From the IMG/VR virus record IMGVR_UViG_3300020436_001049, positions 1 through 42,508 of that record: a DNA stretch of 42,508 nucleotides, one strand, 5' to 3'. A program made the position numbers and the translations under genes. Within the stretch, counting starts at the first letter, position 1. The number at the start of each line of letters is the position of its first letter. The notes under the pieces are model-generated. The model did no database searches. It was not told the DNA's origin and saw nothing but the letters and a program-made list of their open reading frames with translations. Below are positions 3,765-32,189 of the stretch, piece by piece. The DNA comes from a virus.

Positions 3765-4549
3765 CATACACCAGAGGAGTCTATGACTTCTGTACTGCCT
3801 ACATAATAAGCAGTTGCTTGAAAATCATTATCTGCTGTCCATCTGTCTGTAGATTCATTCCAAACAAATTCAACATTGCTTACTGATCCTCTTTCAACTT
3901 CAATACCGGCATTCTCAGATGGTGAGTTCCCTGTATAGTCAGAGTTAAGTGTAAATTTGTTATCTGCAATATTTAGAGTTGCAGTATTGACAGAAGTGGT
4001 TGAGCCAGAGACAGTCAAGTCTCCAGACACAACAACATTGTTGAATGTGACATTGTCAGAAGTACCAACTGCTTGACCAATAGATAATGTGACTTGATTA
4101 CCTGTTGCATTAGAAGTCACACCTGTTCCACCTAAAATAGATAATGTTTCTGAACTTAGAGTAATAGATATAGAATCTGATCCATCAGAAATACCAAGTG
4201 GTGATATTTGACTATCTACATAAGCTTTTATTGATTGTTGTGTAGCAAGAGCTGAAGCACTATTACTTGCCATATTATCTTCATCTTTGATTTCAGATAC
4301 AGTTGCTCCACCACTATTGAAAGTTAGTTCTCTTACTTTGGCAGTTGGACTTGAGTTTTGTGTAGATACAGACCAATGATTATTACCATTGTCATAAATA
4401 AGAAGTCCACCCTCATCTCCACTTGCTAGAGTTATTGAGTTGACAGACTTTGCAAGTATTGTGTTTGGTCCAGAAGCACCTTGAGTTCCAACTGTAATTA
4501 TTGATAAGTTGGTATTGTCTTGAACTGTAATACTACTGACTATACTCAT
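1..4549 (-). CDS. collagen-like phage fibre protein, C-terminus beyond window
   Basis: One reading frame stays open from the ATG at 4549 to the window edge, giving more than 1500 residues and no stop. The start overlaps the stop of the preceding gene as ATGA. The first ~260 residues are non-collagenous and include [14 protein letters not shown], a motif common at the base of trimeric phage fibres. Three Gly-X-Y blocks follow (about 3764-3123, 2761-1441 and 1261-1), separated by a ~120-residue beta-rich insert (about 3120-2762) and a ~60-residue insert (about 1440-1262) holding the phage-fibre pattern [10 protein letters not shown] then GDAYIVQ. Triplets are mainly GPT, GST, GNT, GQK, GDK and GEV. 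Where checked, Pro is always in X; Lys and Thr dominate Y. Such proteins form trimeric fibres. Lying after the capsid genes, it could be a head, neck or tail fibre. Function as a fibre is inferred from family and context. Confidence 0.85.
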
Positions 4550-4899
4550 CTGCTTACATTTCCTCTTATGCTATATGTACCCTCTAATAGTCTGTCTACT
4601 TTTCCATTTGCGTCAGTCAGCTCTAAATCATAAACACCATCTCCGGGGGTAAGATTTGCTGTATCTGTTGCTGATATTAGAAGAGTCAATGTCCCGGCAC
4701 TACCACCATTGGTTATGCCACCATTTGCTGTTGTCAGAGTGACAACTGTTGAAGAATCATCTTGATCAAGTCTAAGGTCCATCTCTGCACCTGTATAACC
4801 TGTTAGATTAATTACAGCACCGGCACTATCTTTTAGTGTAAGTATTTGTTGAAAGGTTGCTCCCTGTTCAATTATAAAATGATGAAAACCAGCACTCAT
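4546..4899 (-). CDS. small beta-rich virion protein preceding the fibre gene
   Basis: The 117-residue product is rich in Thr, Gly and Asp with alternating hydrophobic residues ([38 protein letters not shown]), which suggests a beta sandwich. Proteins of this size and look commonly sit directly upstream of collagen-like or other fibre genes in marine phages, where they are thought to be baseplate or fibre-attachment pieces. Its stop overlaps the fibre start (ATGA), so the two are probably translated together. No catalytic motif or membrane segment is visible. The assignment as virion protein rests on position and composition only. Confidence 0.6.
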
Positions 4900-9590: not shown

Positions 9591-11747
9591 TTAGTCCTTT
9601 GTACTTTTTGGATGTCCTTTTGGCAATAAATCTCTGTCATGTTGACCACCTTGAAATCTTCCTGTTCTCAAAACAAAAAGCAGACTGTTCACTCTGGCCA
9701 GTCCCCATTGATCAGGTCCGGTCACTCCTGGGCGTACACTTCCCCTATCAGAATAGTAAGCTCCAACACCCCTAAGAAAACAAGCAGAGAGCATTCTATA
9801 GGTTGCTCTTTTGGTTTTATTATCTCCATACTTATCATTGTGATCTGATACTTTCTTTTCTAATGCTTTTTTAATTCTTGCACTTACACTAGGTTTTGGT
9901 GCTTTGCAGTCTAGTTTGTCCCAAGCATAGCTTTTTATTTGAGTGTCTGGGATCTCTTCATCAAGCTGTAATCCACTTTCTTTTCTACCCTCTAACTTTT
10001 TAGTAAGTTCTAAGATTACTGCTTTCATCCCGGAGATACCTAGTTTTGGATTTACGCTTCCCCATTTCATGAGGGCAACAACCCCTTTTACATTACTAAG
10101 GTTTGGCTCAAGACTACCGGACACAAATTGATTGCCATCAACTACAGTATGCCTAGCACTCCAAGCTTCTCTTTCCTTGATCCAATTTAGAACACCTGTA
10201 GTCTCTTCTCCCTTTCTTGCTCTACCCCAAAGAACAAATGCAGTATCACCTCTGATGTTTCCACCGGCGTCCCAAATCTTTTTTCCAACTGCTCCACCCT
10301 CTTTTACATTCTTAGCAAACTCATAATCAAACTGTCTGTATTTACTATTTCTTAGAGATATTTTTTCATCATCTCCTCTTGTTGGAAAGTTTGTTTTTTT
10401 TGTGTCTAAGACATCTTCTGATTTTTCATCAAGTCCACTATATATATCTATATCTTTTTCATTAGCACTTTCCTCTGGAACTTCTGGTGCTTCTGCTCCA
10501 AGTGGGAACAAGGTTGCTGATATATAAAGATCATCTGCTCCATCTAAAGGTGTCAGACCAAGTCTTTCTCTTGCTTCATTTCTTGTCATAATACCTTGAG
10601 CAACTGCATTTGTGACATTTGCATATATCAATCTTCTTCTTTCTGAAAGTGCCGGGATGTCATCAATATTGAAATGTAGATGTATGTCATCCCCATACAT
10701 AGGAATCAACCACTCATTGAGATCACTTTCTAACTTCTTGAGTAGTGGGATTATTGTTTCTTCATATAGACCTAATCTAGCTTCTTGGACATTGTTATAA
10801 GTTTGTGCGTCTGGTACTCCTACCAATTGAGATGGGACACCAAAACACATTGCAATATCTGTTGCAGACATATTTTTTAGATTGAGGAAATCCATGTCCT
10901 TTGGACTTAATCCCATCTCTTTCCAATCAAAGTCCCCCTCAAGCAGAAGAGGTCTACCTGCATTATTGGCTCCGGTAAATCTATTCTTGAGATCAGTCTT
11001 AAGTTGTTGTCTTTGAGATTCAGACAAATTTGTGACCACTCCTGTCTCATCTGTAGGTTTGAAGATAATTGCACCAGATGGTCTAGCACCATTATCTAAT
11101 AGATTTATATTGTGTTTTGAAGCCAAATTATGTTGGTCAATCTCAACTGCTGCAGCAGACAAGGGGGACAAACCATAATAGTCATCTAGGGGATTCCATA
11201 ACTTAATATGTTTGAGATCAGATGTACCTGTCTCTGGATCAACAGCATAGTCACCAACCATTTTTCCATTGATCTTATATTGATAACTATTAGGAATTGG
11301 TCTGCCCTCACCCTTGATCTCAATTCTATCTGGTCTGAGTAAGTGTAGCTCCTGGGGTGGTCTGTTCTCTCCACCCACCTTTAATATATAAGCATTACCA
11401 CTCAGCATTAGATAACCAATTAAACTGTTGAAAAACTCTGAATAACTTTGTAATGGATTTGGTCTTTTTAGAACTTCTATGACCGGATGTTGTTCTACAA
11501 TCTCCTCATCTCTGTTTTTGATCATGAAAGGGACACTTGATACACCCTTGCTGATCTCATTAACACATCTATAAACTATTGCATTTGAGAGATACCCCTC
11601 TTTTGCAAGATCACCATATTTATAGTTTTTACCCTCTGATGTGACATTATGCACTCCTAGAATGTTGCCCATCTGTTTTGTTTCTTCTTCTGTTGGTGTA
11701 TTTCCAAAGAAACCTGTAAATCTCTGAAATAATGTTTTTTCTGCCAT
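9591..11747 (-). CDS. portal protein fused to a C-terminal conserved module
   Basis: Residues 1 to ~420 are an HK97-type portal: YLSNAIVYRCVNEISKGVSS, PNPLQSYSEFFNSLIGYLML, the clip/stem region around LNEWLIPMYGDDIHLHFN, and TRNEARERLGLTPLDGADDLY. The portal is the dodecameric DNA channel at the head vertex. About 300 further residues follow an acidic linker. They hold YRQFDYEFAKNVKEGGAVGKK, then near the end ATYRMLSACFLRGVGAYY, SVRPGVTGPDQWGLARVNS and GRFQGGQHDRDLLPKGHP. This latter pattern recalls a stand-alone phage and large-virus domain of unknown function that I remember as DUF5824-like; that name is from memory. Total 718 residues against ~400-450 usual for portals. The start (11747) lies 1 base after the terminase stop. 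Confidence 0.9.
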   Translation of the reverse strand: MAEKTLFQRFTGFFGNTPTEEETKQMGNILGVHNVTSEGKNYKYGDLAKEGYLSNAIVYRCVNEISKGVSSVPFMIKNRDEEIVEQHPVIEVLKRPNPLQSYSEFFNSLIGYLMLSGNAYILKVGGENRPPQELHLLRPDRIEIKGEGRPIPNSYQYKINGKMVGDYAVDPETGTSDLKHIKLWNPLDDYYGLSPLSAAAVEIDQHNLASKHNINLLDNGARPSGAIIFKPTDETGVVTNLSESQRQQLKTDLKNRFTGANNAGRPLLLEGDFDWKEMGLSPKDMDFLNLKNMSATDIAMCFGVPSQLVGVPDAQTYNNVQEARLGLYEETIIPLLKKLESDLNEWLIPMYGDDIHLHFNIDDIPALSERRRLIYANVTNAVAQGIMTRNEARERLGLTPLDGADDLYISATLFPLGAEAPEVPEESANEKDIDIYSGLDEKSEDVLDTKKTNFPTRGDDEKISLRNSKYRQFDYEFAKNVKEGGAVGKKIWDAGGNIRGDTAFVLWGRARKGEETTGVLNWIKEREAWSARHTVVDGNQFVSGSLEPNLSNVKGVVALMKWGSVNPKLGISGMKAVILELTKKLEGRKESGLQLDEEIPDTQIKSYAWDKLDCKAPKPSVSARIKKALEKKVSDHNDKYGDNKTKRATYRMLSACFLRGVGAYYSDRGSVRPGVTGPDQWGLARVNSLLFVLRTGRFQGGQHDRDLLPKGHPKSTKD

Positions 11748-19111: not shown

Positions 19112-19265
19112 TTGGGTGGATCAAAGAATTGCTGAAATAAACAAAATGCCTTATGCTTCTAATGATGACCACCCATGTTTTGAAGAAGTAATGGAACTAT
19201 ATACAACAAAGGCAAGAAGTTATGCAGAGTTCTTGGTGATAAATCCACAATTCAAAAATGAGTAA
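19095..19265 (+). CDS. small hypothetical protein
   Basis: The 56-residue product (SPFDWVDQRIAEINKMPYAS, HPCFEEVMELYTTKARSYAE) is acidic and helical and not recognised. It overlaps the HNH gene end by 17 bases and the methyltransferase start by 8. The ATG at 19095 has AGAAG directly before it; an in-frame ATG at 19074 would add 7 residues with no ribosome site. Similar short genes often fill recombination operons. No function can be given. Confidence 0.5.
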   Translation: MISPFDWVDQRIAEINKMPYASNDDHPCFEEVMELYTTKARSYAEFLVINPQFKNE

Positions 19266-20871
19266 AAAGAAACCATTTGTTGTTCTATCATTATTTGATG
19301 GGGTTTCATGTGGTCAAGTGGCACTTAATAATATTGGTATCAAACCAGATAAATATTATGCTTCTGAGATTGATAAATTTGCCATTCAAGTCACACAACA
19401 TAATTATCCAAATACAATACAACTAGGAGATGTTTGTGACATCAAGGCAGAAGATTTTGATGAAGAGATCACTCTTCTACATGGTGGCTCGCCATGTCAA
19501 GGATTCAGTTTTGCCGGAGATCAACTTGCTTTTGATGATCCAAGGTCAAAACTATTCTTTGAATTTGTCAGATTAGTTCAAGAGTTAAAACCTAAATATT
19601 GGATGTTAGAGAATGTACCAATGAAACAAGAGTTTGAACAAGTTATAACAGAACATCTTTTCCAATACCCTCACAAAATAAATGCTTCTTTAGTTTCAGC
19701 ACAATCAAGAAAAAGACTCTATTGGACAAATATACCCTTGAAAGAAAAACAACCAAAAGACAAAGGTATTTTGCTCAAAGATATTTTAGAGCCAAATGCA
19801 GACATCAATTTTGATATATCAGAAAAGACTTACAAAAGGATTAAAATGTCAGAAAGAGGACAAGAGTTTTTTACTAAAGATAGTGAAAAGATTGGAACTT
19901 TGATTGCTGGTTATCATCATCTGCCTACTGATGGAGCATATATAGAAGAGAATATTTTTGCAGAGGGACTTGATTCAATGACCACACCAGATGGTAAAGC
20001 ATGGTGTGTGACTGCTACTTATGGAAATGCACATCCGGGAAGTCCTCATCATTCATCAGAAAGGCATGAAAGAACTTTGATACCTGCCGGTATAAAGCAG
20101 ATAGGAGAAGCAGACATAAATGGTCATGATCATCAAAAAAGAATCTATGATCCAAATGGTAAAGCACCAACTTTAACAAGTATGGGTGGTGGCAATTTAG
20201 AGCCAAAAGTTCCTGTTCAAGATGAAACAATACAAGAAACAAAGATTACAAAAGCAATAGGTGGTCAAGTAGTTGGTAGAGCTTATGATGAAAAGGGTAG
20301 AAGAAAAGATCATCATGGATCAGTTGCCGGAGAGACAACACAAATGCTTGAGCCAAGGTCTGATGAAAAATCAAATGCACTTACAACAGTTTCAAAAAGT
20401 TCAATTGTTGGCATAGAAGAAGTCCAAAGTTATAAAGAAGTCAGAACAGAAAATGCCAAAAAGAAAAGAAAAGAAATGAGACAGAAAACAGGTAAAGATT
20501 ATACAGACTTTAGAGACAAAGAACTTGTACCAAGAGATGATGGAAAAATAGGAACTCTGACACCTAACCTAAACAATGAACATCAAATAACAGAAACAGT
20601 AGAAAATAAATTAAGGTGGAGACGGCTTACTCCAAAAGAATGTGAAAGACTCCAGGGACTCCCGGATGATTACACTTCTATGGTAAGTAATACTCAGAGG
20701 TACAGACAATGTGGAAATGGCTGGTGTGTACCTGTAATTGAATTTCTATATGAAAACCTAATAGACAATCCTACACCTTTAGACCCTGTCACTATTTACA
20801 AGCAGACATCTATTTTTGATATGTTTGAAGAAGATATGATAACCCCTGGAATAGGAGAAAAAAATGAATGA
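19258..20871 (+). CDS. DNA (cytosine-5) methyltransferase
   Basis: A C5-methyltransferase of 537 residues. Motif I SLFDGVSCGQ (11-20), ASEIDKFAIQVTQHN (motif II), motif IV GGSPCQGFSF with catalytic Cys80, motif VI ENV (118-120), motif VIII SAQSRKRLYWTNI. The C-terminus has RRLTPKECERLQGLPDDYTS (motif IX) and RYRQCGNGWCVPV (motif X). It transfers methyl from SAM to cytosine C5. The region between VIII and IX is long (~250 residues) and holds several similar pieces ending in TLT (GKAPTLTS, SNALTTVS, IGTLTPN), which may be several target-recognition elements. The start overlaps the previous stop by 8 bases; the stop overlaps the oxygenase start. Confidence 0.93.
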   Translation: MSKKKPFVVLSLFDGVSCGQVALNNIGIKPDKYYASEIDKFAIQVTQHNYPNTIQLGDVCDIKAEDFDEEITLLHGGSPCQGFSFAGDQLAFDDPRSKLFFEFVRLVQELKPKYWMLENVPMKQEFEQVITEHLFQYPHKINASLVSAQSRKRLYWTNIPLKEKQPKDKGILLKDILEPNADINFDISEKTYKRIKMSERGQEFFTKDSEKIGTLIAGYHHLPTDGAYIEENIFAEGLDSMTTPDGKAWCVTATYGNAHPGSPHHSSERHERTLIPAGIKQIGEADINGHDHQKRIYDPNGKAPTLTSMGGGNLEPKVPVQDETIQETKITKAIGGQVVGRAYDEKGRRKDHHGSVAGETTQMLEPRSDEKSNALTTVSKSSIVGIEEVQSYKEVRTENAKKKRKEMRQKTGKDYTDFRDKELVPRDDGKIGTLTPNLNNEHQITETVENKLRWRRLTPKECERLQGLPDDYTSMVSNTQRYRQCGNGWCVPVIEFLYENLIDNPTPLDPVTIYKQTSIFDMFEEDMITPGIGEKNE

Positions 20872-21415
20872 TTGGTGGTTTGCACTTGATAGTGCATTAG
20901 ATAAAAAACAAATAAATGATATAAAAGATATGTATGTAAATCCACACAAAGGCAAAGTGGGTTTTGGAGATGAGAGACAAGTAGACTTTATTAGAAAGTC
21001 TAGTATTGTAGGTTTTGGCTACAACACTCCTGGTTGGGGAGATTTATATAAAATACTAACCCCCCTAGTGAATCTTGCCAATAGGGAGTGTTTTGGTTTT
21101 GATATTTCTGGCATATCAGAGTTTCAGATTGCCAAATATAAAACATCTGAATATTACAAAGAACACATGGATTGCAAACTAAGAGGTGTTCCAACAACTA
21201 GAAAACTATCAATTACAGTTCAGCTTACTGATCCAAAAGAATATGAGGGTGGTGACTTTATATTTGGTAAAGACATTCCACAATTACCACCAGAAACTAA
21301 GAACTTAGGATCACTAATTGTTTTCCCTAGTTTTCTATATCATCAAATCACACCTGTCACCAAAGGAGAAAGATTAAGTTTAGTTGGTTGGTATGAGGGC
21401 AACCAATGGAAATAG
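20864..21415 (+). CDS. 2-oxoglutarate/Fe(II)-dependent oxygenase, prolyl-4-hydroxylase-like
   Basis: The 183-residue protein has the iron triad of the 2OG-Fe(II) superfamily: His101 and Asp103 (YKEHMDC) and His160 (FLYHQITPV), with Arg170 (GERLSLVGWY) placed to bind 2-oxoglutarate. Flanking sequences (KLSITVQLTDPKEYEGGDF, LGSLIVFPS) fit the prolyl-4-hydroxylase/PKHD branch. It would hydroxylate a protein, nucleic acid or small molecule using O2. It overlaps the C5-methyltransferase stop by 8 bases, so the two are made together. Possible substrates are methylated DNA or the collagen-like fibre; neither can be decided from sequence. No signal peptide is seen, so it acts in the cytoplasm. Confidence 0.88.
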   Translation: MNDWWFALDSALDKKQINDIKDMYVNPHKGKVGFGDERQVDFIRKSSIVGFGYNTPGWGDLYKILTPLVNLANRECFGFDISGISEFQIAKYKTSEYYKEHMDCKLRGVPTTRKLSITVQLTDPKEYEGGDFIFGKDIPQLPPETKNLGSLIVFPSFLYHQITPVTKGERLSLVGWYEGNQWK

Positions 21416-21564
21416 TAGAGAATTTTATAGGTGTAGTCTTTGTAATCCTTACTGGCCTATTTGCTTATGCTTCGGCTATCATGGTTGATGAAAAGCAAAA
21501 ATATATTAATAAACATGGCAGAGAAAATTACATAAAAGGATTGAAGAGAACAAAGAAAAAATGA
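21406..21564 (+). CDS. 52-residue single-span membrane protein
   Basis: This short gene starts at the ATG inside the last codons of the oxygenase gene and ends with TGA overlapping the next ATG (ATGA). The product has one hydrophobic segment (FIGVVFVILTGLFAYASAIM, residues 7-26) followed by a strongly basic cytoplasmic-type tail (RENYIKGLKRTKKK). By charge, the N-terminus would be outside or the protein sits as a simple anchor. It is tightly coupled to both neighbours. No family is recognised; an anchor for the modification enzymes or a host-membrane effector is speculation. Confidence 0.65.
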   Translation: MEIVENFIGVVFVILTGLFAYASAIMVDEKQKYINKHGRENYIKGLKRTKKK

Positions 21565-22658
21565 GTGGTAATATAAAACTGTTGATTGGTAATGCCTTAG
21601 ATCAACTTAAAACCTTAGATGATGAATCAGTAAATTGTGTTGTCACCTCACCACCATATTTTAATTTAAGAGATTATGACACTGGATCCTGGGTTGGTGG
21701 TGATCCGGATTGTGATCATAAACCGGGTGAGATCCTAAATATCCATAAAATTAGCTCATCAAATGAGAAACCTCAAGCATTTTATAAAGACATTTGTGAG
21801 AAATGTGGTGCAAAAAGAGTTGATCATCAGATAGGTTTAGAAGCTACACCTCAAGATTTTATAGATAATCTTTGTGAAATATTTACTGAATGCAAAAGAG
21901 TTCTTAAAAAGGATGGTACTTTATGGATCAATATTGGTGATACCTATGCTAGTAAAGTCAAAGGTCTAAAGAATAAAGACCTTATAGGTGTCCCCTGGAT
22001 GTTAGCATTTGCCCTCAGAGACAAAGTTGGACTATATCTAAGGCAAGACATCATTTGGGCAAAACCAAACCCTCTACCGGAAAGTGTAAAGGATAGATGT
22101 ACTAAATCTCATGAATATATATTCCTATTCAGCAAAAGTCCTCAGTATTATTTTGATCATGAATCAATAAGAGAAGATTCTGTAGATTATGAAAATTCAA
22201 AAAGAAGATACCAATATGAACTTATGGGTGGAGAAAAACATGAGAGTGGAAAGTTTTTTACTAATAGAGAAAATCCACATACAAAAGAAATAAAAGAGTT
22301 TGATGGTAAAAGAAGTAAAAGAGATGTTTGGAATGTTTCTGCAAAACCATATTCAGAAGCTCATTTTGCAGTTTATCCACCAGACTTGATTGCACCTTGT
22401 ATTCTTGCCGGATGTCCCCCGGATGGAACTGTCCTTGATCCATTTGCTGGGTCCGGAACTACAGGTATTGTCGCAGCAAACAATTTAAGAAATAGCATTC
22501 TTATAGAACTCAATGAAGATTATGCAAAACTTATAGAAAAAAGATGGCAACAAAATGGCACTCTTTTTACAGACTTTGAATCTAATGTAGAAATTCCAAA
22601 AGAATCTACAAGTTTTGGAATACAAGATGTTGTTGACTTTGAATCCAATTTGGATTAA
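21561..22658 (+). CDS. DNA N4-cytosine or N6-adenine methyltransferase, beta class
   Basis: Motif order is that of beta-class amino-methyltransferases: the catalytic TSPPY (residues 29-33) comes first and the SAM-binding DPFAGSGTTG (293-302) last, with LRQDIIWAKPNPLPESVKDR and YIFLFSKSPQYYFD between. SPPY is commonest in N4-cytosine enzymes but also occurs in N6-adenine ones. A Cys/His cluster (DPDCDHKPGE, ICEKCGAKRVDH, about residues 49-90) probably binds zinc and may help in target recognition. The 365-residue length is normal. It starts in the TGA of the membrane gene. Its target sequence cannot be read here; it may protect phage DNA from host restriction. Confidence 0.9.
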   Translation: MSGNIKLLIGNALDQLKTLDDESVNCVVTSPPYFNLRDYDTGSWVGGDPDCDHKPGEILNIHKISSSNEKPQAFYKDICEKCGAKRVDHQIGLEATPQDFIDNLCEIFTECKRVLKKDGTLWINIGDTYASKVKGLKNKDLIGVPWMLAFALRDKVGLYLRQDIIWAKPNPLPESVKDRCTKSHEYIFLFSKSPQYYFDHESIREDSVDYENSKRRYQYELMGGEKHESGKFFTNRENPHTKEIKEFDGKRSKRDVWNVSAKPYSEAHFAVYPPDLIAPCILAGCPPDGTVLDPFAGSGTTGIVAANNLRNSILIELNEDYAKLIEKRWQQNGTLFTDFESNVEIPKESTSFGIQDVVDFESNLD

Positions 22659-24240: not shown

Positions 24241-24470
24241 TTTGTCACACTACCTTTCTTCTCAGATTTATACATTATATTTAGTCCTGCCAAAGTAGTA
24301 AGTCTATTCTTTTCATCAAGTCCTTTTTCTGTAATCTTAAAATCATTTCCAACAACTTCTAAAAACTCTAACTTGATTAATTCATTGACTACTTCTGATG
24401 GCACTTCTTCATTAAACATTACTGATAATAATGCACCCAATCTTTTATTTTGAGTTTTACTTAATGCCAT
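24231..24470 (-). CDS. small winged-helix-like hypothetical protein
   Basis: The 79-residue product (LSKTQNKRLGALLSVMFNEE, then VVNELIKLEFLEVVGNDFKI and TEKGLDEKNRL) looks like a small winged helix, with the pattern of a recognition helix and then a beta hairpin. I place the start at the ATG at 24470, which overlaps the endolysin stop (TAATG), in preference to a TTG 15 bases upstream. It is the last gene of the late operon. A late regulatory role is possible but not shown. Confidence 0.55.
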   Translation of the reverse strand: MALSKTQNKRLGALLSVMFNEEVPSEVVNELIKLEFLEVVGNDFKITEKGLDEKNRLTTLAGLNIMYKSEKKGSVTNGN

Positions 24471-24916
24471 TAAACTGTATGCCAATCTCCATTAGATTCA
24501 AAGAGCATACTTTCTGCAAGTCTGCGTCTTTGTAATCCCTCTAAAACTTTACCCCCTGCTTTACACCACTTCCTCATTTCTGATGGTACAAGATCATACT
24601 TGCCCTCATTCAAAACTTTGAGCATTGTGGATGATTTTAAATTTGCCGGACCTAGGTTGTAAACCCAAGAACACAATGCGTCAAACTGACTTTGATTTAA
24701 TGGTACTGACACCATATCATTTATGTAATTCTCATACTCAACAATGTCTCCATCAAATCTTTCATCAGCATAAGATTGAGACCAGACATCTCCCTCTTTT
24801 ACATCTTTGGTCGCACCCCATCCATTTGTCCAAACTCCTGCTGAACATTTATAAGCTTCTAGTCTGCAACCCTCAAATTTTTTTATTAATGCTTTTCCCT
24901 CTTCTGAAATATTCAT
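24470..24916 (-). CDS. endolysin, T4-lysozyme/R21-like muramidase (GH24)
   Basis: From the ATG at 24916 (148 residues) the N-terminal region LIKKFEGCRLEAYKCSAGVW-T holds the catalytic Glu15 and Thr30 with Cys24 at the place of the usual Asp/Cys, with the exact spacing (E +9, +15) of phage lysozymes. NQSQFDALCSWVYNLGPANL and GLQRRRLAESMLF complete the family pattern. It cleaves the glycan strand of peptidoglycan. There is no signal or SAR segment, so export depends on the holin. An upstream in-frame start would extend into the nuclease gene and is rejected. Confidence 0.9.
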   Translation of the reverse strand: MNISEEGKALIKKFEGCRLEAYKCSAGVWTNGWGATKDVKEGDVWSQSYADERFDGDIVEYENYINDMVSVPLNQSQFDALCSWVYNLGPANLKSSTMLKVLNEGKYDLVPSEMRKWCKAGGKVLEGLQRRRLAESMLFESNGDWHTV

Positions 24917-24920
24917 AACT

Positions 24921-25313
24921 TCATTCCCATATTTTTGTTTTTGTTCCACCATCATAATCAACTGCCAAAGGTGGATTATGTGCTTTGAGCAGATCAACAA
25001 TATTTCCTTTACTGCAAAAAACATCTGCTAACACTCTCCCATATTTATCAGGTCCATAGGATTTTATTGTAATGTCTCCCACTAACCATTCTTTAAGTTT
25101 TTCTTTTGCTAATAGTCCTAACTCTTTTTCTCTTGCTCTATGTGGATATTTTTTTGTGTTGATCCGGGACTCCGGAGTGTCAATAGAATTTACCCTTATG
25201 GTTTTATTATACAAATAAATATCATAACCAAGAGAGATTGTTCCTCTGATAGTATCTCCATCTATAACTTTTGTGAGTTCTAACCTATAGATATATTTTT
25301 CTGGACTTTCCAT
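24921..25313 (-). CDS. staphylococcal-nuclease-like (SNase) protein
   Basis: The SNase fold is clear: LTKVIDGDTIRGTISLGYDI, then TIRVNSIDTPESRI (catalytic Arg and Glu region) and GPDKYGRVLADVFCSKG (second catalytic Arg). Members cut DNA or RNA with calcium. There is no signal peptide. It sits between holin and endolysin, so it is a late gene; it may degrade host DNA at lysis or in the cytoplasm. The ATG at 25313 gives 130 residues but lies right after a hairpin and T run with no ribosome site; a TTG at 25328, preceded by AAGG, would add 5 residues and put the hairpin in the coding part. The true start is uncertain. Confidence 0.82.
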   Translation of the reverse strand: MESPEKYIYRLELTKVIDGDTIRGTISLGYDIYLYNKTIRVNSIDTPESRINTKKYPHRAREKELGLLAKEKLKEWLVGDITIKSYGPDKYGRVLADVFCSKGNIVDLLKAHNPPLAVDYDGGTKTKIWE

Positions 25314-25314
25314 A

Positions 25315-25336
25315 ACAAAAAAGGGCAACTGCCCTT
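25315..25336 (-). terminator. strong Rho-independent terminator-like hairpin
   Basis: On the minus strand AAGGGC, AGTT, GCCCTT (25336-25321) is a perfect stem with a four-base loop, followed by six T (25320-25315). It lies 7 bases after the holin stop and directly before the SNase start. It either ends most of the curli/spanin/holin transcript or controls translation of the nuclease gene by sequestering the site. Confidence 0.75.
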
Positions 25337-25546: not shown

Positions 25547-25927
25547 TCACTTTTCTTCTTCTTCTTCATCATCTTTGTCCAAATCTCTGTAATACTTATT
25601 TATAGCTAAAATGTTTTTTAGATACCTTTTGAACTCTGCCATGTTCATAGATAAGTTCTCATACTCTTTACTTGTAAGGGCATAATAAGCTTTTCTTGGT
25701 GCATTACCCTCTTCAATATCTTTCAGATATTGTTCCATAATTTCTGGTGTTAGGATCTCAAAATCTACATCAACTAATGCTAGTTCTCTTGGTAATGGTG
25801 GATGAAATATAGGTGGTCTTTCTGCTACCCTTACAACTTCTACAGGTTGCTCAGATTTTGGAATCATACTACAACTAGCAACTAAAAATACTGCTAGACT
25901 AATTACTATCTGTTTCAACTTCATCAA
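25547..25927 (-). CDS. putative outer-membrane spanin (Rz1-like lipoprotein)
   Basis: The 126-residue protein starts with a lipoprotein signal, LAVFLVASC, with the lipidated Cys at residue 19. The mature part begins Pro-rich (AERPPIFHPPLPRE) as in Rz1-type spanins, then is helical (YALTSKEYENLSMNMAEFKR) and ends in a run of Asp and Glu. It overlaps the inner-membrane partner by 29 bases, the arrangement typical of Rz/Rz1 pairs. It would sit in the outer membrane and fuse it with the inner one during lysis. At ~108 mature residues it is longer than lambda Rz1. Confidence 0.7.
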   Translation of the reverse strand: MMKLKQIVISLAVFLVASCSMIPKSEQPVEVVRVAERPPIFHPPLPRELALVDVDFEILTPEIMEQYLKDIEEGNAPRKAYYALTSKEYENLSMNMAEFKRYLKNILAINKYYRDLDKDDEEEEEK

Positions 25928-26306
25928 ACTGATCTGGATTTGTCAGAGTTATAAGATCATCTTTAACTCTTTTGGTTGCTTTGTTTACTCTTGTTTCTAT
26001 AAGTCCTGGTTTAGCTAATGCAAGATTATCTAAATCATGCCTTGCAAAAGTATCTCTTAATTTATTGACTTCTCTTTCTGCTTCATTCTTTTCCTTTTCC
26101 ATAGAAGTTATCAAACTATTTTGTTTTTGATTTTGTTCAATCATATTTTTGATTTGTTCATTTTGGGTTTTGATCTCATTTTGTAAAGTAATTTGATTGC
26201 CTTTTAGAGTTGCAATCTGATCTTGTAAATAATCTATATACCAAATGCAACCACCAATAATAGATATTGCTATTGCACCAATAATTAGATTGAGTCTGAG
26301 TCCCAT
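25899..26306 (-). CDS. putative inner-membrane spanin (Rz-like)
   Basis: The 135-residue product has an N-terminal membrane anchor (LNLIIGAIAISIIGGCIWYI) followed by a long periplasmic coiled coil (QIATLKGNQITLQNEIKTQN and onward to EREVNKLRDTFARHD). This is the standard inner-spanin layout. It overlaps the lipoprotein gene by 29 bases and the cyclase gene by 22 bases, so lysis genes and the cyclase are on one message. Recognition is from architecture, since spanins are poorly conserved. Confidence 0.72.
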   Translation of the reverse strand: MGLRLNLIIGAIAISIIGGCIWYIDYLQDQIATLKGNQITLQNEIKTQNEQIKNMIEQNQKQNSLITSMEKEKNEAEREVNKLRDTFARHDLDNLALAKPGLIETRVNKATKRVKDDLITLTNPDQFDEVETDSN

Positions 26307-28072
26307 GTAAATACTTCCAACATTTCTTCTTTACCCTTTACCTTTATTGGATCAAGAGGTGTCAATTCAAATGATAAACCTTTTTCAGTTTCCTTTCCAA
26401 TTAGGATGTGTGCATTTGCTTCTTTGGTAGCACTCTCTAGTCTTGCTGCAGTATTTACAGGATCACCTATTGATGTATAGCAAAACCTTTTTGTGCTTCC
26501 ATGATTTCCTGTAATACTATACCCGGACTGAATCCCACAACCAATTTCAATTGGTGGTAATCCTCTTTCAGCAAATTTTAGATTAAGTTTTATAAGTTCT
26601 GATCTCATTTCTAATGCACAAAGTACAGCTTTTTCTTCATGATTTTCTAATGGGAAAGGAGCTCCAAAGATACCAAAACAAGCGTCACCAATATAGTTTG
26701 AAATAAGACCACCATGTTTTAGAATACACTCAGTTTGCATATCAAGAGATTTGTTCATAATTTCTGTCACTTCTTCTGGTGACAATTCTTCTGACATTGA
26801 AGTAAAGTTCCGGACATCTGTAAAAAGATAAGTGCAATATCTTTTTTCTCCACCTAATCTTAATAACTTGGGATTTTCTTGTAATCTTTTGACTTGCCTT
26901 GGATCAAGATATGTTTCAAATTGTTTTTTGATTTGTTGTCTAAGTTTATATTGTTCTCTATAGTTTAAATAAAATGCTGTCCCACCTGTAAAAATACCAG
27001 AGAACATTGCATAAGATACATCAATAAGTGTCCCATTTTGTATTATTAGAGCTCCAGAAATGCCCTCTAAGGCAATGATTGATGTAAATAGACCTAGTGA
27101 TATACCTAAATTAAACCTATGAAGTACAAACCAAACCATTAGTATAGTCATAATTATCAACAGCATTTCAACAGCAATAGCATAATCTGGGATTGATGGA
27201 CTGTTTTTTATAAGCAAAGATTCAGCTAGAGCAGTTTGAATTTCTTGAGGAAAAAGTAAACCATTGGGTGTTGCAGTTTGAGGTAATATCCCTGGAGCAG
27301 AAACTCCTATGATTACAAACTTACCCTCAACATCCATTTCTTCCAAAGTAGTAGTAGGAGACTTTACATAGCTGATCCATTTTCTACCCAAGTTATCAGT
27401 TGGTATTTGTCCAATGCCTTGTATAGTAATCTCTTCAATGCCATATTCACTTTGTTTGACAATATAAGTATCTGACTCTGCTAATCTTTTTATGATTTGT
27501 GTGGCAAATGCTGGGGTATAACCACCCTCAGTTTTATACAACAAAGGTATTCTTCTTAACAGGTTATCCACATCCACCGGTGCTGAAACCAAACCCTCTA
27601 AAGAACTTTCTCTTATGCTCTCAATGTTTGGCATATACCCATCTACTTTTACTCCAGGGACTTCATCTGCATATCCTAGAATTACTGTTCCTGTAAGTGG
27701 GGGTTGTAGACCATTATCATTTTCAAATGTAGCTACAACTGTTGGTAAATCTTTTATGAAATCAGTAAATATTTCATCTTGTCCAAATCTATCTGGGTAA
27801 GTGAAGTTCATTGTCCATCCAACTCCAATAGCACCCTTTTTCATAATGTCATATTGTATTTGTGCATACATTGATCTAGGAAAAGGAAAACCACCTCTCT
27901 CTCTTATATCTTTTTCTGTTATAGATATGGTTGTGAAATATCCGGATGGTTGTTGTTCCTCTACAAATGCGTCAAAAGTTCTAAGTTTTATTGTCTCAAC
28001 CATTGAAAAATTTGCTAAATATATAGCACTAAATATAAAAAGAAGAGATCCTAGTACCTTTAAATTACCCAT
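26285..28072 (-). CDS. CHASE2-domain class III adenylate/guanylate cyclase
   Basis: A 595-residue membrane cyclase. After an N-terminal hydrophobic segment (5-22), residues ~25-285 are an extracytoplasmic CHASE2 sensor (TFDAFVEEQQPSGYF, GGFPFPRSMYAQIQYDI, WISYVKSPTTTLEE, GKFVIIGVSA). Three membrane segments follow (about 297-370), then a linker (QFETYLDPRQVKRLQENP) and the catalytic domain: metal-binding Asp419 (LFTDVRNFTS) and Asp463 (YIGDACFGIFGAP), and transition-state Asn540 and Arg544 (GDPVNTAARLE). The active-site residues look intact. The product would be cAMP or, less likely, cGMP. In bacteria CHASE2 cyclases often neighbour FecR proteins, as here. It overlaps the FecR gene by 8 bases. 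It is very unusual in a phage lysis region. Confidence 0.92.
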   Translation of the reverse strand: MGNLKVLGSLLFIFSAIYLANFSMVETIKLRTFDAFVEEQQPSGYFTTISITEKDIRERGGFPFPRSMYAQIQYDIMKKGAIGVGWTMNFTYPDRFGQDEIFTDFIKDLPTVVATFENDNGLQPPLTGTVILGYADEVPGVKVDGYMPNIESIRESSLEGLVSAPVDVDNLLRRIPLLYKTEGGYTPAFATQIIKRLAESDTYIVKQSEYGIEEITIQGIGQIPTDNLGRKWISYVKSPTTTLEEMDVEGKFVIIGVSAPGILPQTATPNGLLFPQEIQTALAESLLIKNSPSIPDYAIAVEMLLIIMTILMVWFVLHRFNLGISLGLFTSIIALEGISGALIIQNGTLIDVSYAMFSGIFTGGTAFYLNYREQYKLRQQIKKQFETYLDPRQVKRLQENPKLLRLGGEKRYCTYLFTDVRNFTSMSEELSPEEVTEIMNKSLDMQTECILKHGGLISNYIGDACFGIFGAPFPLENHEEKAVLCALEMRSELIKLNLKFAERGLPPIEIGCGIQSGYSITGNHGSTKRFCYTSIGDPVNTAARLESATKEANAHILIGKETEKGLSFELTPLDPIKVKGKEEMLEVFTWDSDSI

Positions 28073-29153
28073 CTGATTGATTAATTTTTATAACAGTAGA
28101 GCTACCACCATTGATTTTAACATTATTGCAGACACCATCTTGGCATAGAAGAATACTATATGATCCATCAACTGCTAAATCTAATCTTGTTGACTCTGAT
28201 ACTTGTCTTTGAAGAGTAATTATATTATCTGTAATAAAGGTGGTGATTTGTGTTTCTGCGTCTTGACCAAAATTTGTTCCTACTAAATTAACACCAGAGA
28301 CTTCTGCCAAAACATCCTCATCATCAGAGATAGCTAACTCATCAATAATATCAAGTAAGTCCTCAAGAAAATTTATGTCAAGGGCGTCATAATCAATCTC
28401 ACTAAAATTCAAGTCCTCACTTTCCAAAAAGTCCTCTGCCAAAAAATCAAAATCTAAATCATCTTCTGTAAGTATCTCAGTTTTTTTTGTTTGATCTTGA
28501 GTCTCTTGACTTACCTCAATCTCTTTTGGTGGAGTCACAATCAAAAGATTGTCAATAAGTTCTAAAGTTATATCTAAAAGAACAGGTGGAGATGGTGTGC
28601 TTTCAAATACAGAAACAGTAGTTGCTTGAAAAGGTCTGTTGAGTATGACACTTCCAGCTCCTGTAATTACTTCTATTTCACCACTAGATAGTCCAAACTC
28701 ATCCGGAAGAAGTATTACCAAAGTTTCACCCAACTCATTTATTGTCATTGTGAAATCTGTACCATTTATTCCCACAAAAGCAGTTGGTGTTTCAATCTTA
28801 ATATTTGCTTTATTTATATTGTTTAGTTTTGAAGATAAAAATCTTGCAGTACCTAGAGAAAACTTTAGACCTAGTTCACTCTTATTAGGGTCCGGGGAAT
28901 ATACATATTTTGAAATAAAGAGTTTTGAATACTCTGTCAACCACACTTGAGATGAATCTAAAAATGTAATTCCCATTCTGCCATTCTTTGTAATAGCAGT
29001 ATCATTCTGTTGTATTGGTAATTTTAATTCAGCAATAAATGGCTCATCCCTTACAATTTGGGCATTGCCATTTAATTCTGAAACATCTCCTATTGGGTTT
29101 GCATTAACAGGAAGTTGAGCCAGAATCAGACTGAATAATACAAATGTTCGCAT
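28065..29153 (-). CDS. exported FecR-domain protein with acidic C-terminal region
   Basis: The 362-residue product has a signal peptide (MRTFVLFSLILAQLPVNA) and then a FecR domain (about 20-170): GDVSELNGNAQIVRDEP, AITKNGRMGITFLDSSQVWL, then GTARFLSSKL, IETPTAFVGINGTDF and SGEIEVITGAGSVILN. A stretch from about 220 to 290 is very rich in Asp, Glu and Leu (DFDFLAEDFLESEDLNF). The domain occurs in periplasmic or surface regulators and carrier proteins. It begins 50 bases inside the curlin-like gene with an AGGAA site, and ends overlapping the cyclase start. It may present a signal to the CHASE2 domain; that is inference from coupling. Confidence 0.85.
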   Translation of the reverse strand: MRTFVLFSLILAQLPVNANPIGDVSELNGNAQIVRDEPFIAELKLPIQQNDTAITKNGRMGITFLDSSQVWLTEYSKLFISKYVYSPDPNKSELGLKFSLGTARFLSSKLNNINKANIKIETPTAFVGINGTDFTMTINELGETLVILLPDEFGLSSGEIEVITGAGSVILNRPFQATTVSVFESTPSPPVLLDITLELIDNLLIVTPPKEIEVSQETQDQTKKTEILTEDDLDFDFLAEDFLESEDLNFSEIDYDALDINFLEDLLDIIDELAISDDEDVLAEVSGVNLVGTNFGQDAETQITTFITDNIITLQRQVSESTRLDLAVDGSYSILLCQDGVCNNVKINGGSSTVIKINQSDG

Positions 29154-29814
29154 TGTTTCCTGTCTGAATGATCTTTAGATAATCTAAAGCAAGAGTTGAT
29201 TGTTGCTGAATAGTAAACTGTCCATCATCTCCTGTAGAGTCTAAGTAGAAATATCCACCTGCATAACCATCTCCATCATAGGTTATTGTATTGTCATCTC
29301 CATCTAAATCTACATAAGATGTAGCACCATCAATATCTATATTGAAACTCATGGTATTTCCAGAGCCGTTTACTAGCCAATCAAGGTCAAGCTGTTCTGC
29401 TAATGCAGCAGTTCCTTGGTTTAATGTGAAAGTGTTTGTGTTGCCAGAAACATCCACATTCCAATTTGAACTATCAGCAGAATAGGTATCTGTCGGATCA
29501 ATTTGTATGGTGAATAAATTAGTGTCACCATTGAACTCAAAAAAACCTGTTGAATTGTCAGCAAAAATATCACCAAGAAACTTGTTTGAATCACCTAATT
29601 GATTGATGTCCAAAACCATAGTTCCACCATCAAGGTCAAAAGCCACTAATGAGCCAGATGATGAGTTCAGACCACCAATCATATTTGATGATCCAAGTTG
29701 TTCAAGGTCAATACTAGAGTTTGCTCCAGATTGATCAACATAGATTTCATTATCAGTTGCTACTGCAACAAGACTGTTTAATAATAATGAAAACATAAAA
29801 GTCTTTTTAATCAT
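29104..29814 (-). CDS. curlin-like amyloid subunit (CsgA/CsgB-type repeats)
   Basis: From the ATG at 29814 (236 residues) a signal peptide (MIKKTFMFSLLLNSLVAVA) is followed by repeats with the curlin look, alternating polar and hydrophobic residues with Gln, Gly and Asn: IYVDQSGANSSIDLEQLG, TMVLDINQLGDSNKFLG, NVDVSGNTNTFTLNQG, YVDLDGDDNTITYDGDG and IIQTGNNANICIIQSDSG. Repeats are looser and more acidic than in E. coli CsgA. The C-terminus has two Cys. It should be secreted through the CsgG pore encoded just upstream (8-base overlap) and form surface fibres. An in-frame ATG further upstream lies inside csgG and lacks a signal peptide. Confidence 0.78.
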   Translation of the reverse strand: MIKKTFMFSLLLNSLVAVATDNEIYVDQSGANSSIDLEQLGSSNMIGGLNSSSGSLVAFDLDGGTMVLDINQLGDSNKFLGDIFADNSTGFFEFNGDTNLFTIQIDPTDTYSADSSNWNVDVSGNTNTFTLNQGTAALAEQLDLDWLVNGSGNTMSFNIDIDGATSYVDLDGDDNTITYDGDGYAGGYFYLDSTGDDGQFTIQQQSTLALDYLKIIQTGNNANICIIQSDSGSTSC

Positions 29815-30637
29815 GTTTCCAAAATCTCCTTTCATATCCTTGGGATATGATTTCATATAATGCACTCTCTATTGCTTTTTGTAAAGCAATGGTAGTTGCC
29901 TCATTCTCTGCATTACCAACTTCAATCTCAAGAAGTTGTGTCTGCATATCATAGAATCTAAAGACATCCTCAGATTGTCCATAGCTATAAATTGTTTTTG
30001 TTGCCATTGTCTCTAATAGTATTTCTCCGGTAGAAGTGCTTATCATCCTTAGACTTACAGTCACTTGATCCATTTTATATCTGACTGATTTTCCTACCCC
30101 TAACCATCTGGACCCTAAACCCCCGGACAAGATATTTGTGTCATAAGAAACAACAGCACCATCAAATAAAACACCTGCAAAAAGTAATGGCATAAGTTCT
30201 TTTTTTTCTCCATCTGCATTTACAAGTTGATCTCTTGTACTTCTAATCAACTGTCTTTCCTTTGTGAGTGAGTCTAAATTTTGTCTTTCTACAACAACAA
30301 AGAACTGACCATTTGCTGTATGTTTTAGAGCATGGATAAGTAAACTTGAGGGTTGTTGTGTTATAGCAGTAGAGAATAAAGCAAATTCAGAGTTTGATTT
30401 TCTCTGCCCTGTTTGATCAGAGAATGCTGTAGAGTAAACACCAACTACTGGCTTGATGTCTGGGATCTCAACATTTAACAATTCTTCACTATAAAGAGTT
30501 CTTGTTTTAGCTATATTGAGTTTTTTGCTTGGGAATCTTTCTTGTTTTGTGTCCTCAATGACATGAAAGATACTACATCCGGGGAGCAGTAATATTAGTA
30601 ATCCTATTGATAAGGTTTTAAAATGTGAATGTCCCAA
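29807..30637 (-). CDS. csgG: CsgG-like curli secretion channel lipoprotein
   Basis: The 276-residue product has a lipobox (LLILLLPGC, Cys21) and then clear similarity to CsgG: VVGVYSTAFSDQTGQRKSN, TAITQQPSSLLIHALK, FFVVVERQNLDSLTKERQLI, GSRWLGVGKSVRYKMDQVTV, LRMISTSTGEILLETMATKT and DVFRFYDMQTQLLEIEVGNA. CsgG makes a nonameric outer-membrane pore for curlin subunits. The beta-barrel and plug-loop regions appear complete. The start is TTG, 20 bases inside csgF, so expression depends on coupling; no ATG is available nearby. Together with CsgF it makes a plausible working export unit. No CsgE-like gene is seen. Confidence 0.92.
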   Translation of the reverse strand: MGHSHFKTLSIGLLILLLPGCSIFHVIEDTKQERFPSKKLNIAKTRTLYSEELLNVEIPDIKPVVGVYSTAFSDQTGQRKSNSEFALFSTAITQQPSSLLIHALKHTANGQFFVVVERQNLDSLTKERQLIRSTRDQLVNADGEKKELMPLLFAGVLFDGAVVSYDTNILSGGLGSRWLGVGKSVRYKMDQVTVSLRMISTSTGEILLETMATKTIYSYGQSEDVFRFYDMQTQLLEIEVGNAENEATTIALQKAIESALYEIISQGYERRFWKHD

Positions 30638-31139
30638 TTGGCAAAGTTATCTCAGTCACCACTCCATCTGGTGTGGTAATAATTAATGTTATAAATAATC
30701 CATCTTCTGATACTGAGTATTCAATGGTGTTTCCCATCAATTCTAAAGTACCACTTGTCATTGGTGTTTCACCAAATAAGTTATCCACAAGCTGTCTACT
30801 GAGTTGAGCAAAGATTCTTGATTCTAAATTTCTTATGAATCTAGCAAGAGTTGTGTTTTCTTTATCTCTCTCAAGCTGTTCTTGTAGTGCTTTTATGTCA
30901 GCTTTGATAGATTCTTTTCTATTAAATTCTTGATTCTCTATAGTCAAATAATGACTAGAAGTATTGACACCACTAAAGGATGGACTTTTAAACTTATGCA
31001 CAATCTCATCTGCTTTTAGATTTTGTGCAAAAATACCAATAACAAGTATGACACCTATTACTGCAATGATCTTTATGAGTTTATCTTTTTGTTGCTCTAG
31101 TTCTTTTTTTTGAGCTTTTGTTTGCTTTGCTTTTACCAT
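30618..31139 (-). CDS. csgF: CsgF-like curli assembly protein
   Basis: The mature part matches CsgF: EIVHKFKSPSFSGVNTSSHY (the N-terminal segment that enters the CsgG pore), a charged helix (ESIKADIKALQEQLERDKEN), IFAQLSRQLVDNLFGE, then the beta-rich end NTIEYSVSEDGLFITLIITT and VVTEITLPIGTF. CsgF sits on the CsgG pore and helps attach the nucleator. The signal sequence is unusual: ~24 basic and polar residues (VKAKQTKAQKKELEQQKDK) precede the hydrophobic core IIAVIGVILVIGIFA and a likely cleavage after LKA. I use the ATG at 31139; a TTG lies 6 bases upstream. It overlaps its neighbours on both sides. Confidence 0.82.
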   Translation of the reverse strand: MVKAKQTKAQKKELEQQKDKLIKIIAVIGVILVIGIFAQNLKADEIVHKFKSPSFSGVNTSSHYLTIENQEFNRKESIKADIKALQEQLERDKENTTLARFIRNLESRIFAQLSRQLVDNLFGETPMTSGTLELMGNTIEYSVSEDGLFITLIITTPDGVVTEITLPIGTFTF

Positions 31140-31374
31140 TATCAAATTCCACTATGTTTTTATAAGTGTTCAGCTTTTGCTGTAATCTGATAAGGTCATT
31201 ATCCAACACCCTAATTCTATCTATCAATCCTATCAGAATTGTATTGGTTTCGGCAAGTTTGGGTTTGATTTTTTCAGTTATAAATTTCCATATAAAATAT
31301 ACAAACCAAAGCAATCCAAGAACTGCAATGATTGGAAATCCATAATCTGCTATAGCATTTGAGAGACTATCCAA
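31081..31374 (-). CDS. small membrane protein with coiled coil
   Basis: The product has one hydrophobic segment (GFPIIAVLGLLWFVYFIWKF) near the N-terminus and a helical, basic tail (LIRLQQKLNTYKNIVEFDNG, ending KKRTRATKR). Layout resembles BhlA/holin-like phage proteins. I prefer a TTG start at 31374, which has AAAGG 6 bases before it; a TTG at 31401 lacks one. It overlaps csgF by 59 bases and the 65-residue gene by 25. It could be a second holin, or an inner-membrane adaptor for the curli genes. Confidence 0.55.
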   Translation of the reverse strand: MDSLSNAIADYGFPIIAVLGLLWFVYFIWKFITEKIKPKLAETNTILIGLIDRIRVLDNDLIRLQQKLNTYKNIVEFDNGKSKANKSSKKRTRATKR

Positions 31375-31547
31375 ATCAAACCTTTGATTATAAAGTACCA
31401 ACTAGCTAAGCAGATAACAGTCAACATTACTAAAGCAAAAACATTGCTTGGTAATTCTTGATCTCTAAATGATTTTATAGATGTGTGGTTTAGAAAACCT
31501 TTTCTACCCCATCTATTTTTAATCTCTTCTGGCGTCATTTTTTCCAT
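31350..31547 (-). CDS. small single-span membrane protein
   Basis: The 65-residue product has a polar, basic first half (EEIKNRWGRKGFLNHTSIKS) and a hydrophobic second half (NVFALVMLTVICLASWYFII then KGLIWIVSQML), so its C-terminus is in or beyond the membrane. It overlaps the genes on both sides, showing that these four small genes are one translational block. No family is recognised. Role could be lysis control. Confidence 0.55.
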   Translation of the reverse strand: MEKMTPEEIKNRWGRKGFLNHTSIKSFRDQELPSNVFALVMLTVICLASWYFIIKGLIWIVSQML

Positions 31548-31800
31548 CTGCTCTTGCTATCCTATCTAGGTCCGGGGCAATGCCAAGGACTGAACAAATT
31601 GTATTATCTACCCTAATGGTATCATGATTCATTGTTTTCACTCTATTATCTAATGCTTTCACAATACCCTCTATACCAGCAACTTGATTCAATACACTTT
31701 CTAATATGTATTTAATTGTTAAGAAAATAAAGAATCCAGATATAATTGCCAATGCTATAGGAAACCCTACATCAGATATTAGAGTCAAAACATCTTGCAT
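31519..31800 (-). CDS. small membrane protein, BhlA/holin-like
   Basis: The 93-residue product begins with a membrane segment (LISDVGFPIALAIISGFFIF) and continues with an amphipathic helix (VAGIEGIVKALDNRVKTMNH) and a charged end (PDLDRIARADGKND). The DVGFPIA start is like that of the neighbouring protein at 31081 (DYGFPIIA), suggesting the two are related copies. The layout is that of BhlA-type holin-like proteins. Its start overlaps the preceding stop (TAATG). Confidence 0.58.
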   Translation of the reverse strand: MQDVLTLISDVGFPIALAIISGFFIFLTIKYILESVLNQVAGIEGIVKALDNRVKTMNHDTIRVDNTICSVLGIAPDLDRIARADGKNDARRD

Positions 31801-32189
31801 TAGTTATCCTCACCCTTGAACTTTTTGCTCTGACCAGAAGTACCTGCATAAATTCCAAATACTGCTGCCATAGCTCCAACAACAATTGATACTAAAGCAG
31901 ACTGTTCTATGTTTGGGTCCGGCAATTCCATAAACCACATGACAACTTTGTATAAAAGAAATATGTAAACACCAACAAATATCCTTGGAAATATTCTCCA
32001 AGAATCTATTGCCTTTGCTAAGTGAATCCATTTTTGATGAGGGTTTACTCTTTCATCATCTTCAAGTTCTCTGATTTTATCTTTGAGTTGAGATATTTCT
32101 TCAATCATTGACATGAACTTTGACAAGTCCATCTCTACTTCATTTCTATCCATATCCCCTGCAAATCTACCTCTGTTCATATCATCCAT
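31800..32189 (-). CDS. membrane protein with two C-terminal spans, holin-like
   Basis: Residues 1-70 are charged and helical (MDLSKFMSMIEEISQLKDKI); two hydrophobic segments follow (IFPRIFVGVYIFLLYKVVMW and ALVSIVVGAMAAVFGIYAGT), with a short basic end. The second span followed by GTSGQSKK resembles holin-like proteins of marine phages. An AGGAG site lies 6 bases before the ATG. It directly follows the 122-residue gene and precedes the other small membrane genes. It is the best holin candidate of the group other than the gene at 25344. Confidence 0.6.
   Translation of the reverse strand: MDDMNRGRFAGDMDRNEVEMDLSKFMSMIEEISQLKDKIRELEDDERVNPHQKWIHLAKAIDSWRIFPRIFVGVYIFLLYKVVMWFMELPDPNIEQSALVSIVVGAMAAVFGIYAGTSGQSKKFKGEDN

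Follow-up and report, generated by a model that had tools for sequence, protein, structure and literature searches.

The locus raises the question of why a tailed phage would carry a curli (type VIII) secretion set between its tail and lysis genes, and what this set could do for the phage.

Phage identity and arrangement of the curli module

The window, meaning the whole stretch of DNA that was analysed, is a 42,508-base IMG/VR virus record. Its head genes were of the HK97 type, with a portal (PF04860, 3.4e-83), protease, major head protein and terminase, and its tail genes (tape measure, distal tail protein and J-like tip) were those of a long tail. The early genes were on the strand opposite to the module. 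The window is a tailed phage and not a host fragment, as the original prediction had argued from the flanks of the module, where a J-like tail protein was found before it and a lysozyme after it. No DNA-level match of the module region to known phage records was found. The nearest matches of the window TerL and capsid included Roseobacter and Rhizobium phages (45-47%) among mixed matches, and one related contig with the module was binned in a Pelagibacter MAG; these are hints only to the host.

Elsewhere in the window, a collagen-like Gly-X-Y repeat protein (1-4551, minus strand) of at least about 1,500 codons with GxKGQKGE units runs off the left end of the record and accounts for the high GC and strong skew there. 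The C-terminal third (450-713) of the 718 aa portal (9591-11747) matched separate hypothetical proteins of Salinibacter phages (42%) and is possibly a fused extra domain. In addition, a C5-cytosine methylase, a 2OG-Fe(II) oxygenase and an N4/N6 methylase were arranged consecutively at 19258-22658, a possible DNA modification set.

The minus-strand order was tail tip, four small membrane proteins, CsgF, CsgG, curlin-repeat protein, FecR, CHASE2 cyclase, two spanins, nuclease and lysozyme, with the following features:

Before the module, minus strand: J-like (lambda-J-like) tail-tip protein (phrog_5616, 1.6e-76)
31800..32189, minus strand: tmD, two predicted spans, holin candidate (phrog_10198, function unknown)
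31519..31800, minus strand: tmC, 93 aa, one span and a coiled coil (phrog_18771)
31350..31547, minus strand: tmB, 65 aa membrane protein
31081..31401, minus strand: tmA, 106 aa, one span, paralogue of tmC (phrog_18771)
30618..31139, minus strand: CsgF homologue (PF10614, 5.2e-14, over the curated cut-off)
29807..30637, minus strand: CsgG outer-membrane pore homologue (PF03783, E=1.2e-43, 149 bits against a cut-off of 20.8; lipobox LPGC)
29104..29814, minus strand: curlin-repeat (CsgA/B-like) secreted protein (predicted signal peptide, GxxN repeats, C-terminal Cys pair)
28065..29153, minus strand: FecR-domain protein (PF04773, 5.9e-8, over the curated cut-off)
26285..28072, minus strand: CHASE2 and class III nucleotide cyclase (CHASE2 9e-26, Guanylate_cyc 2.5e-18, both over the curated cut-offs)
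25899..26306, minus strand: inner-membrane spanin, Rz-like (phrog_739, 1.4e-16)
25547..25927, minus strand: outer-membrane lipoprotein spanin, Rz1-like (phrog_812, 5.8e-14)
25321..25336, minus strand: terminator-like hairpin by consensus match only, G+C-rich stem, just past the outer spanin
24921..25328, minus strand: SNase-type nuclease (PF00565, 1.7e-7)
24470..25024, minus strand: phage lysozyme, endolysin (PF00959, 4e-45)

From tmD through the outer spanin, the genes were co-directional and overlapped one another. The overlaps were 20 nt for CsgF/CsgG, 8 nt (ATG at 29814) to 59 nt (GTG at 29865) for CsgG/curlin, 50 nt for curlin/FecR, 8 nt for FecR/cyclase, 22 nt for cyclase/inner spanin and 29 nt for inner/outer spanin. 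The original prediction had described a chain at 25899-31139 in which each gene overlaps the next and the cyclase overlaps the inner spanin; these coordinates and overlaps were correct from CsgF to the spanins, but the small membrane proteins at 31081-32189 also belong to the chain. The predicted lysis flank was present with spanins and endolysin, although a nuclease gene separates the two. The spanins form an Rz/Rz1-like pair, in which the gene of an inner-membrane coiled-coil protein overlaps that of an outer-membrane lipoprotein, and the true start of the lysozyme is probably inside the ORF 24470..25024.

No terminator-like site was found on the coding strand between CsgF and the outer spanin, and the sole other such site on the minus strand was upstream, inside tmD, with a weaker stem. 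A promoter scan gave sites no commoner than in shuffles. The gene arrangement is consistent with a single late message, and the module would then be expressed late, alongside the last tail gene and the genes for lysis.

Proteins of the module

Four of the predicted identities, CsgF, CsgG, FecR and the CHASE2 cyclase, were confirmed by Pfam scores over the curated cut-offs. The window CsgG matched the E. coli CsgG structures with an E of about 7e-41. The viral loop at the E. coli constriction position differed (TGQRKSNSEFALFS versus TGQFKPYPASNFS), and pore width or gating may therefore differ; in E. coli this loop is KPYPASNF, and RRSNSxFAxF-like loops are found there in the phage CsgG family. 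The mature N-terminus of CsgF kept the pattern F-[KR]-x-P-x-F-x-G with F52, P55, F57 and G59 invariant in 17 aligned rows, and its equivalent in E. coli CsgF sits inside the CsgG barrel. The window CsgF was in register with E. coli CsgF (PDB chains 6l7a_J/6lqh_a) in a weak match (E 0.024), and a CsgG-binding N-terminal motif is thus a likely reading of the alignment. A loss of pairing between CsgG and CsgF in phages has been suggested as a possibility, and the phage Melnitz was said to be without fibre genes (PMC9004378); the Melnitz record annotates two curlin-repeat genes.

The curlin-like protein of the original prediction scored 16.1 bits in Pfam, under the curated cut-off of 20.7, and is backed by other evidence. 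It had 7 GxxN motifs against 2.4 expected on shuffling (0.6% of shuffles reach 7), and the Gly and Asn of most motifs were invariant in 43-45 relatives. The AlphaFold2 model was a confident, all-beta repeat protein (pLDDT 86), and a search of solved structures with the protein gave 8c50, a curlin-associated repeat protein, as a weak top match (E 0.0015). Foldseek of the model against the PDB produced no match at E<=0.001; the CsgA fibril of E. coli reached only E=0.91, so the model supports beta-rich repeats and not a formal fold match. Overall, repeat pattern and position, rather than a curated score, suggest a secreted curlin-repeat subunit.

The CsgE adaptor stimulates curli export and is not strictly required. 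No CsgE match was found among the module proteins scanned and CsgC and CsgD were likewise absent, as predicted. A CsgG pore left ungated for lack of CsgE might serve nutrient or cofactor uptake, as proposed earlier (PMC7029224, PMC9599517), and the name FecR hints at iron. However, curlin and CsgF would then be superfluous. The exported FecR protein also does not imply a role in iron, since the cytoplasmic portion found in the sigma regulator FecR is missing from it, and uptake is considered very unlikely.

The FecR protein showed a predicted signal peptide, no other membrane span, an acidic linker and a C-terminal beta region; its structure model was poor (pLDDT 55) and was left out of use. 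In the predicted topology of the cyclase, the CHASE2 sensor is periplasmic between membrane spans and the cyclase domain is cytoplasmic, which would place CHASE2 in the compartment that receives the exported FecR protein. In 30 alphaproteobacterial genomes, those with the strongest CHASE2 matches, a FecR gene was found at most 5 kb from 20 of the 53 CHASE2 genes against 0.5 expected. This supports FecR and CHASE2 as working partners and agrees with their co-occurrence in bacteria as stated in the original prediction.

The window cyclase retained the metal residues Asp419/Asp463 and the transition-state residues Asn540/Arg544. Position 459, where Lys is the adenine-recognising residue of class III adenylate-type cyclases, was Asn in the window and Lys in the other 91 aligned rows and in all 51 further relatives with a readable motif. 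Positions 422, 458, 466 and 531 also differed from near-invariant residues, and a sequencing error is an unlikely cause of several changes at once. Since the window cyclase is atypical at its substrate-recognition site, the cyclic-nucleotide signal that had been predicted cannot be assumed to be cAMP, and the enzyme may differ from its relatives in activity or substrate. The scanned genes of the window included no recognisable cyclic-nucleotide receptor.

The proteins of the tmC and tmA family, phrog_18771 (function unknown), are about 90-130 aa long and have a single membrane span as well as a coiled coil. Among the best 80 CsgF loci, tmC was ahead of CsgF in 68/68 with enough upstream sequence, and tmD homologues were directly ahead of tmC in many relatives. 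tmC was weakly similar to the holin family phrog_4898 (E=0.0024) and to YvrJ PF12841 (E=0.014). The charge distribution of tmA and tmC gave no clear orientation. In the published phage cluster, one or two short histidine kinases (HK) were described as coming first in every case (PMC9599517). Pfam gave no kinase domain in the gene before CsgF (93-106 aa, one span), and this small one-span protein may be what was published as a histidine kinase.

Known systems, conservation and origin of the module

The original prediction left open whether such sets had been reported in phages, and the module itself is already known in ocean phages. HK, CsgF, CsgG, CsgA/B, FecR and adenylate cyclase were described in Pelagibacter podo- and myophages in mSystems in 2022, with CsgA/B-type genes identified in myophages and phage T8SS genes among published metatranscripts (PMC9599517). 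Phage CsgGF was reported in 2020 (PMC7029224) and in Melnitz in 2022 (PMC9004378), and csgG was listed among marine phage genes (PMC7003362). A literature search that covered mainly open-access journal articles gave no paper describing curli genes in HK97-type siphophages, and none that places the module beside spanins. Added here are the strict conservation, the selection, a further phage lineage and the frequent lysis-gene neighbourhood.

The pelagiphage T8SS cluster (HTVC023P-type podoviruses and pelagimyophages; PMC9599517, PMC7029224) has the same genes in the same order and no CsgC/D/E, and the window order CsgF-CsgG-CsgA/B-FecR-cyclase fits it. In contrast, the phage of the window and its five relatives have an HK97 portal and a J tail, and the window has one curlin gene instead of two, a module inserted between tail tip and spanins, a gene before CsgF without a kinase domain and a cyclase without the conserved Lys. 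HTVC008M (a Pelagibacter myophage) and Melnitz (a Methylophilales myophage) share with the window the order tmC-tmA-CsgF-CsgG-curlin-FecR-(curlin)-cyclase at 30-50% protein identity. They differ by an extra gene that follows FecR and precedes the cyclase, which the Melnitz record annotates as a curlin repeat protein, and by T4-like genomes of 140-147 kb in which baseplate or tail genes follow the module on the other strand. Alphaproteobacterial curli loci have CsgF-CsgG in common with the phage module, and curlin genes nearby in several, but their CsgG formed a clade separate from phage CsgG. CsgG and CsgF of E. coli csgBAC/csgDEFG are homologous to those of the phage, whereas the phage is without CsgE, CsgC and CsgD, has an altered constriction loop and its CsgF is weakly similar only.

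Peptide-pattern scans of IMG/VR gathered at least 594 CsgF and at least 599 cyclase relatives in viral contigs. Among the best 80 CsgF loci, a best-scoring sample that leans towards the window's kind, CsgG, curlin and FecR were found downstream of CsgF in 44/44 with enough downstream sequence and the cyclase in 43/44. A spanin or lysozyme was present within 6.5 kb downstream in 25 of these 44; the remaining loci had lysis genes upstream, or none seen nearby. For the cyclase loci, likewise the best-scoring relatives, CsgG and FecR were upstream in 48/48, and a spanin or lysozyme was downstream in 30/47. The predicted tie to lysis timing therefore held as a recurring neighbourhood but not as a demonstrated mechanism. 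Median dN/dS over 25 close-relative pairs per gene was 0.079 for CsgF, 0.066 for CsgG, 0.071 for curlin, 0.073 for FecR and 0.080 for the cyclase. All five core genes are under equal purifying selection and none is drifting, so no part of the module is a relic, and values of about 0.07 throughout count against a pore-only view.

The lysis neighbourhood also fits a role in lysis itself, in which the CsgG/CsgF pore and the small membrane proteins would permeabilise the outer membrane or act like a pinholin, with cyclase and FecR for timing and curlin as an accessory. This is close to the lysis role proposed for Melnitz (PMC9004378) and agrees with the weakly holin-like tmC. However, the curlin gene is always present and constrained as much as CsgG, CsgF retains the CsgG-binding motif, spanins and endolysin are already encoded, and in the parts of HTVC008M and Melnitz that were read, no annotated lysis genes adjoin the module. 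A lysis role is judged unlikely.

A chimeric assembly or host fragment, which the original prediction had named as an alternative, is refuted and keeps next to no probability. No support for it was found; hundreds of independent viral loci had the same order, and the set was also carried by five further contigs whose TerL (65-67%) and portal family were those of the window.

Of 22 long contigs tested, these five had a window-type TerL, an HK97 portal and the same module, and the other 17 neither this TerL nor this portal, which shows that the module is not confined to a single lineage of phages. The CsgG tree put contig L085 in a different, well-supported clade from L062, L163, L175, L220 and the window despite the same terminase lineage. 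This points to at least two acquisitions, or a swap of the module, in this lineage; the window was on a long branch and its exact place is uncertain. PF12236, a head-tail connector and podovirus marker, matched nowhere, controls included, and was uninformative.

Thirteen module matches in bacterial MAGs (L095-L107; labelled Pelagibacter, Maricaulis, Flavobacteriales, Planctomycetaceae, Synechococcus and others) all showed the phage layout. They were rejected as genuine bacterial modules and are most likely phage contigs in bins, which could mislead bacterial curli surveys. Viral profiles gave no FecR, cyclase, tmA or tmC within about 9 kb of five genuine alphaproteobacterial csgFG loci. Since FecR-CHASE2 pairs are nevertheless common in bacteria, the phage module looks like a curli operon to which a signalling pair of FecR and CHASE2 and a small membrane protein of phage type were joined.

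Proposed role of the module

The preferred explanation, to which about an even chance is given, is a late type VIII (curli) secretion module, encoded by the phage, whose product would coat the dying cell, with FecR-CHASE2 as a periplasmic sensor pair. Exported CsgG and CsgF would form an outer-membrane pore with a surface anchor, curlin would be exported through this pore, and a beta-solenoid amyloid would assemble on the infected cell surface shortly before the cell is broken by spanins and endolysin. Exported FecR would be the periplasmic partner of the CHASE2 cyclase and may report envelope state or curlin export to a cytoplasmic cyclic nucleotide. Such late amyloid remodelling of the cell surface, as originally predicted, agrees with published proposals (PMC7029224, PMC9599517). 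Counting against it are the lack of CsgE, CsgC and CsgD, the curlin score under the Pfam cut-off, the altered constriction loop and the lack of a cyclic-nucleotide receptor among the genes scanned.

The most likely benefit would be that neighbour hosts or progeny are kept near the burst ('sibling capture') or that competing phages are excluded. Melnitz, which carries the module, showed no clumping in culture (PMC9004378), and this is the strongest published point against sibling capture. Superinfection exclusion as the main function, where other phages would late in infection be kept from adsorbing by an amyloid coat or a changed surface, draws on the same molecular evidence as the preferred explanation, and curli-borne biofilm has been argued to limit phage penetration (PMC9599517). 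However, late expression would protect only briefly, and no result here separates exclusion from sibling capture; exclusion is regarded as unlikely.

A similarly doubtful proposal is a lysis-coupled amyloid burst system, in which the curli pore and the FecR-CHASE2 cyclase would work as a unit with the holin-like tmC/tmA, respond to curlin export or to the condition of the envelope, and trigger lysis once the cell is coated. If this were true, curli export would belong to the release of the phage, and its genes would not be an auxiliary metabolic set.

Ocean phages widely carry curli genes. Strong selection on every gene of the module, fibre subunit included, in several unrelated phage lineages suggests a defined device rather than an auxiliary gene list. 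Small membrane proteins always accompany the module, and such a device is open to testing in laboratory E. coli. Finally, the frequent adjacency to spanin and endolysin genes provides a concrete hypothesis on when during infection the module may act.
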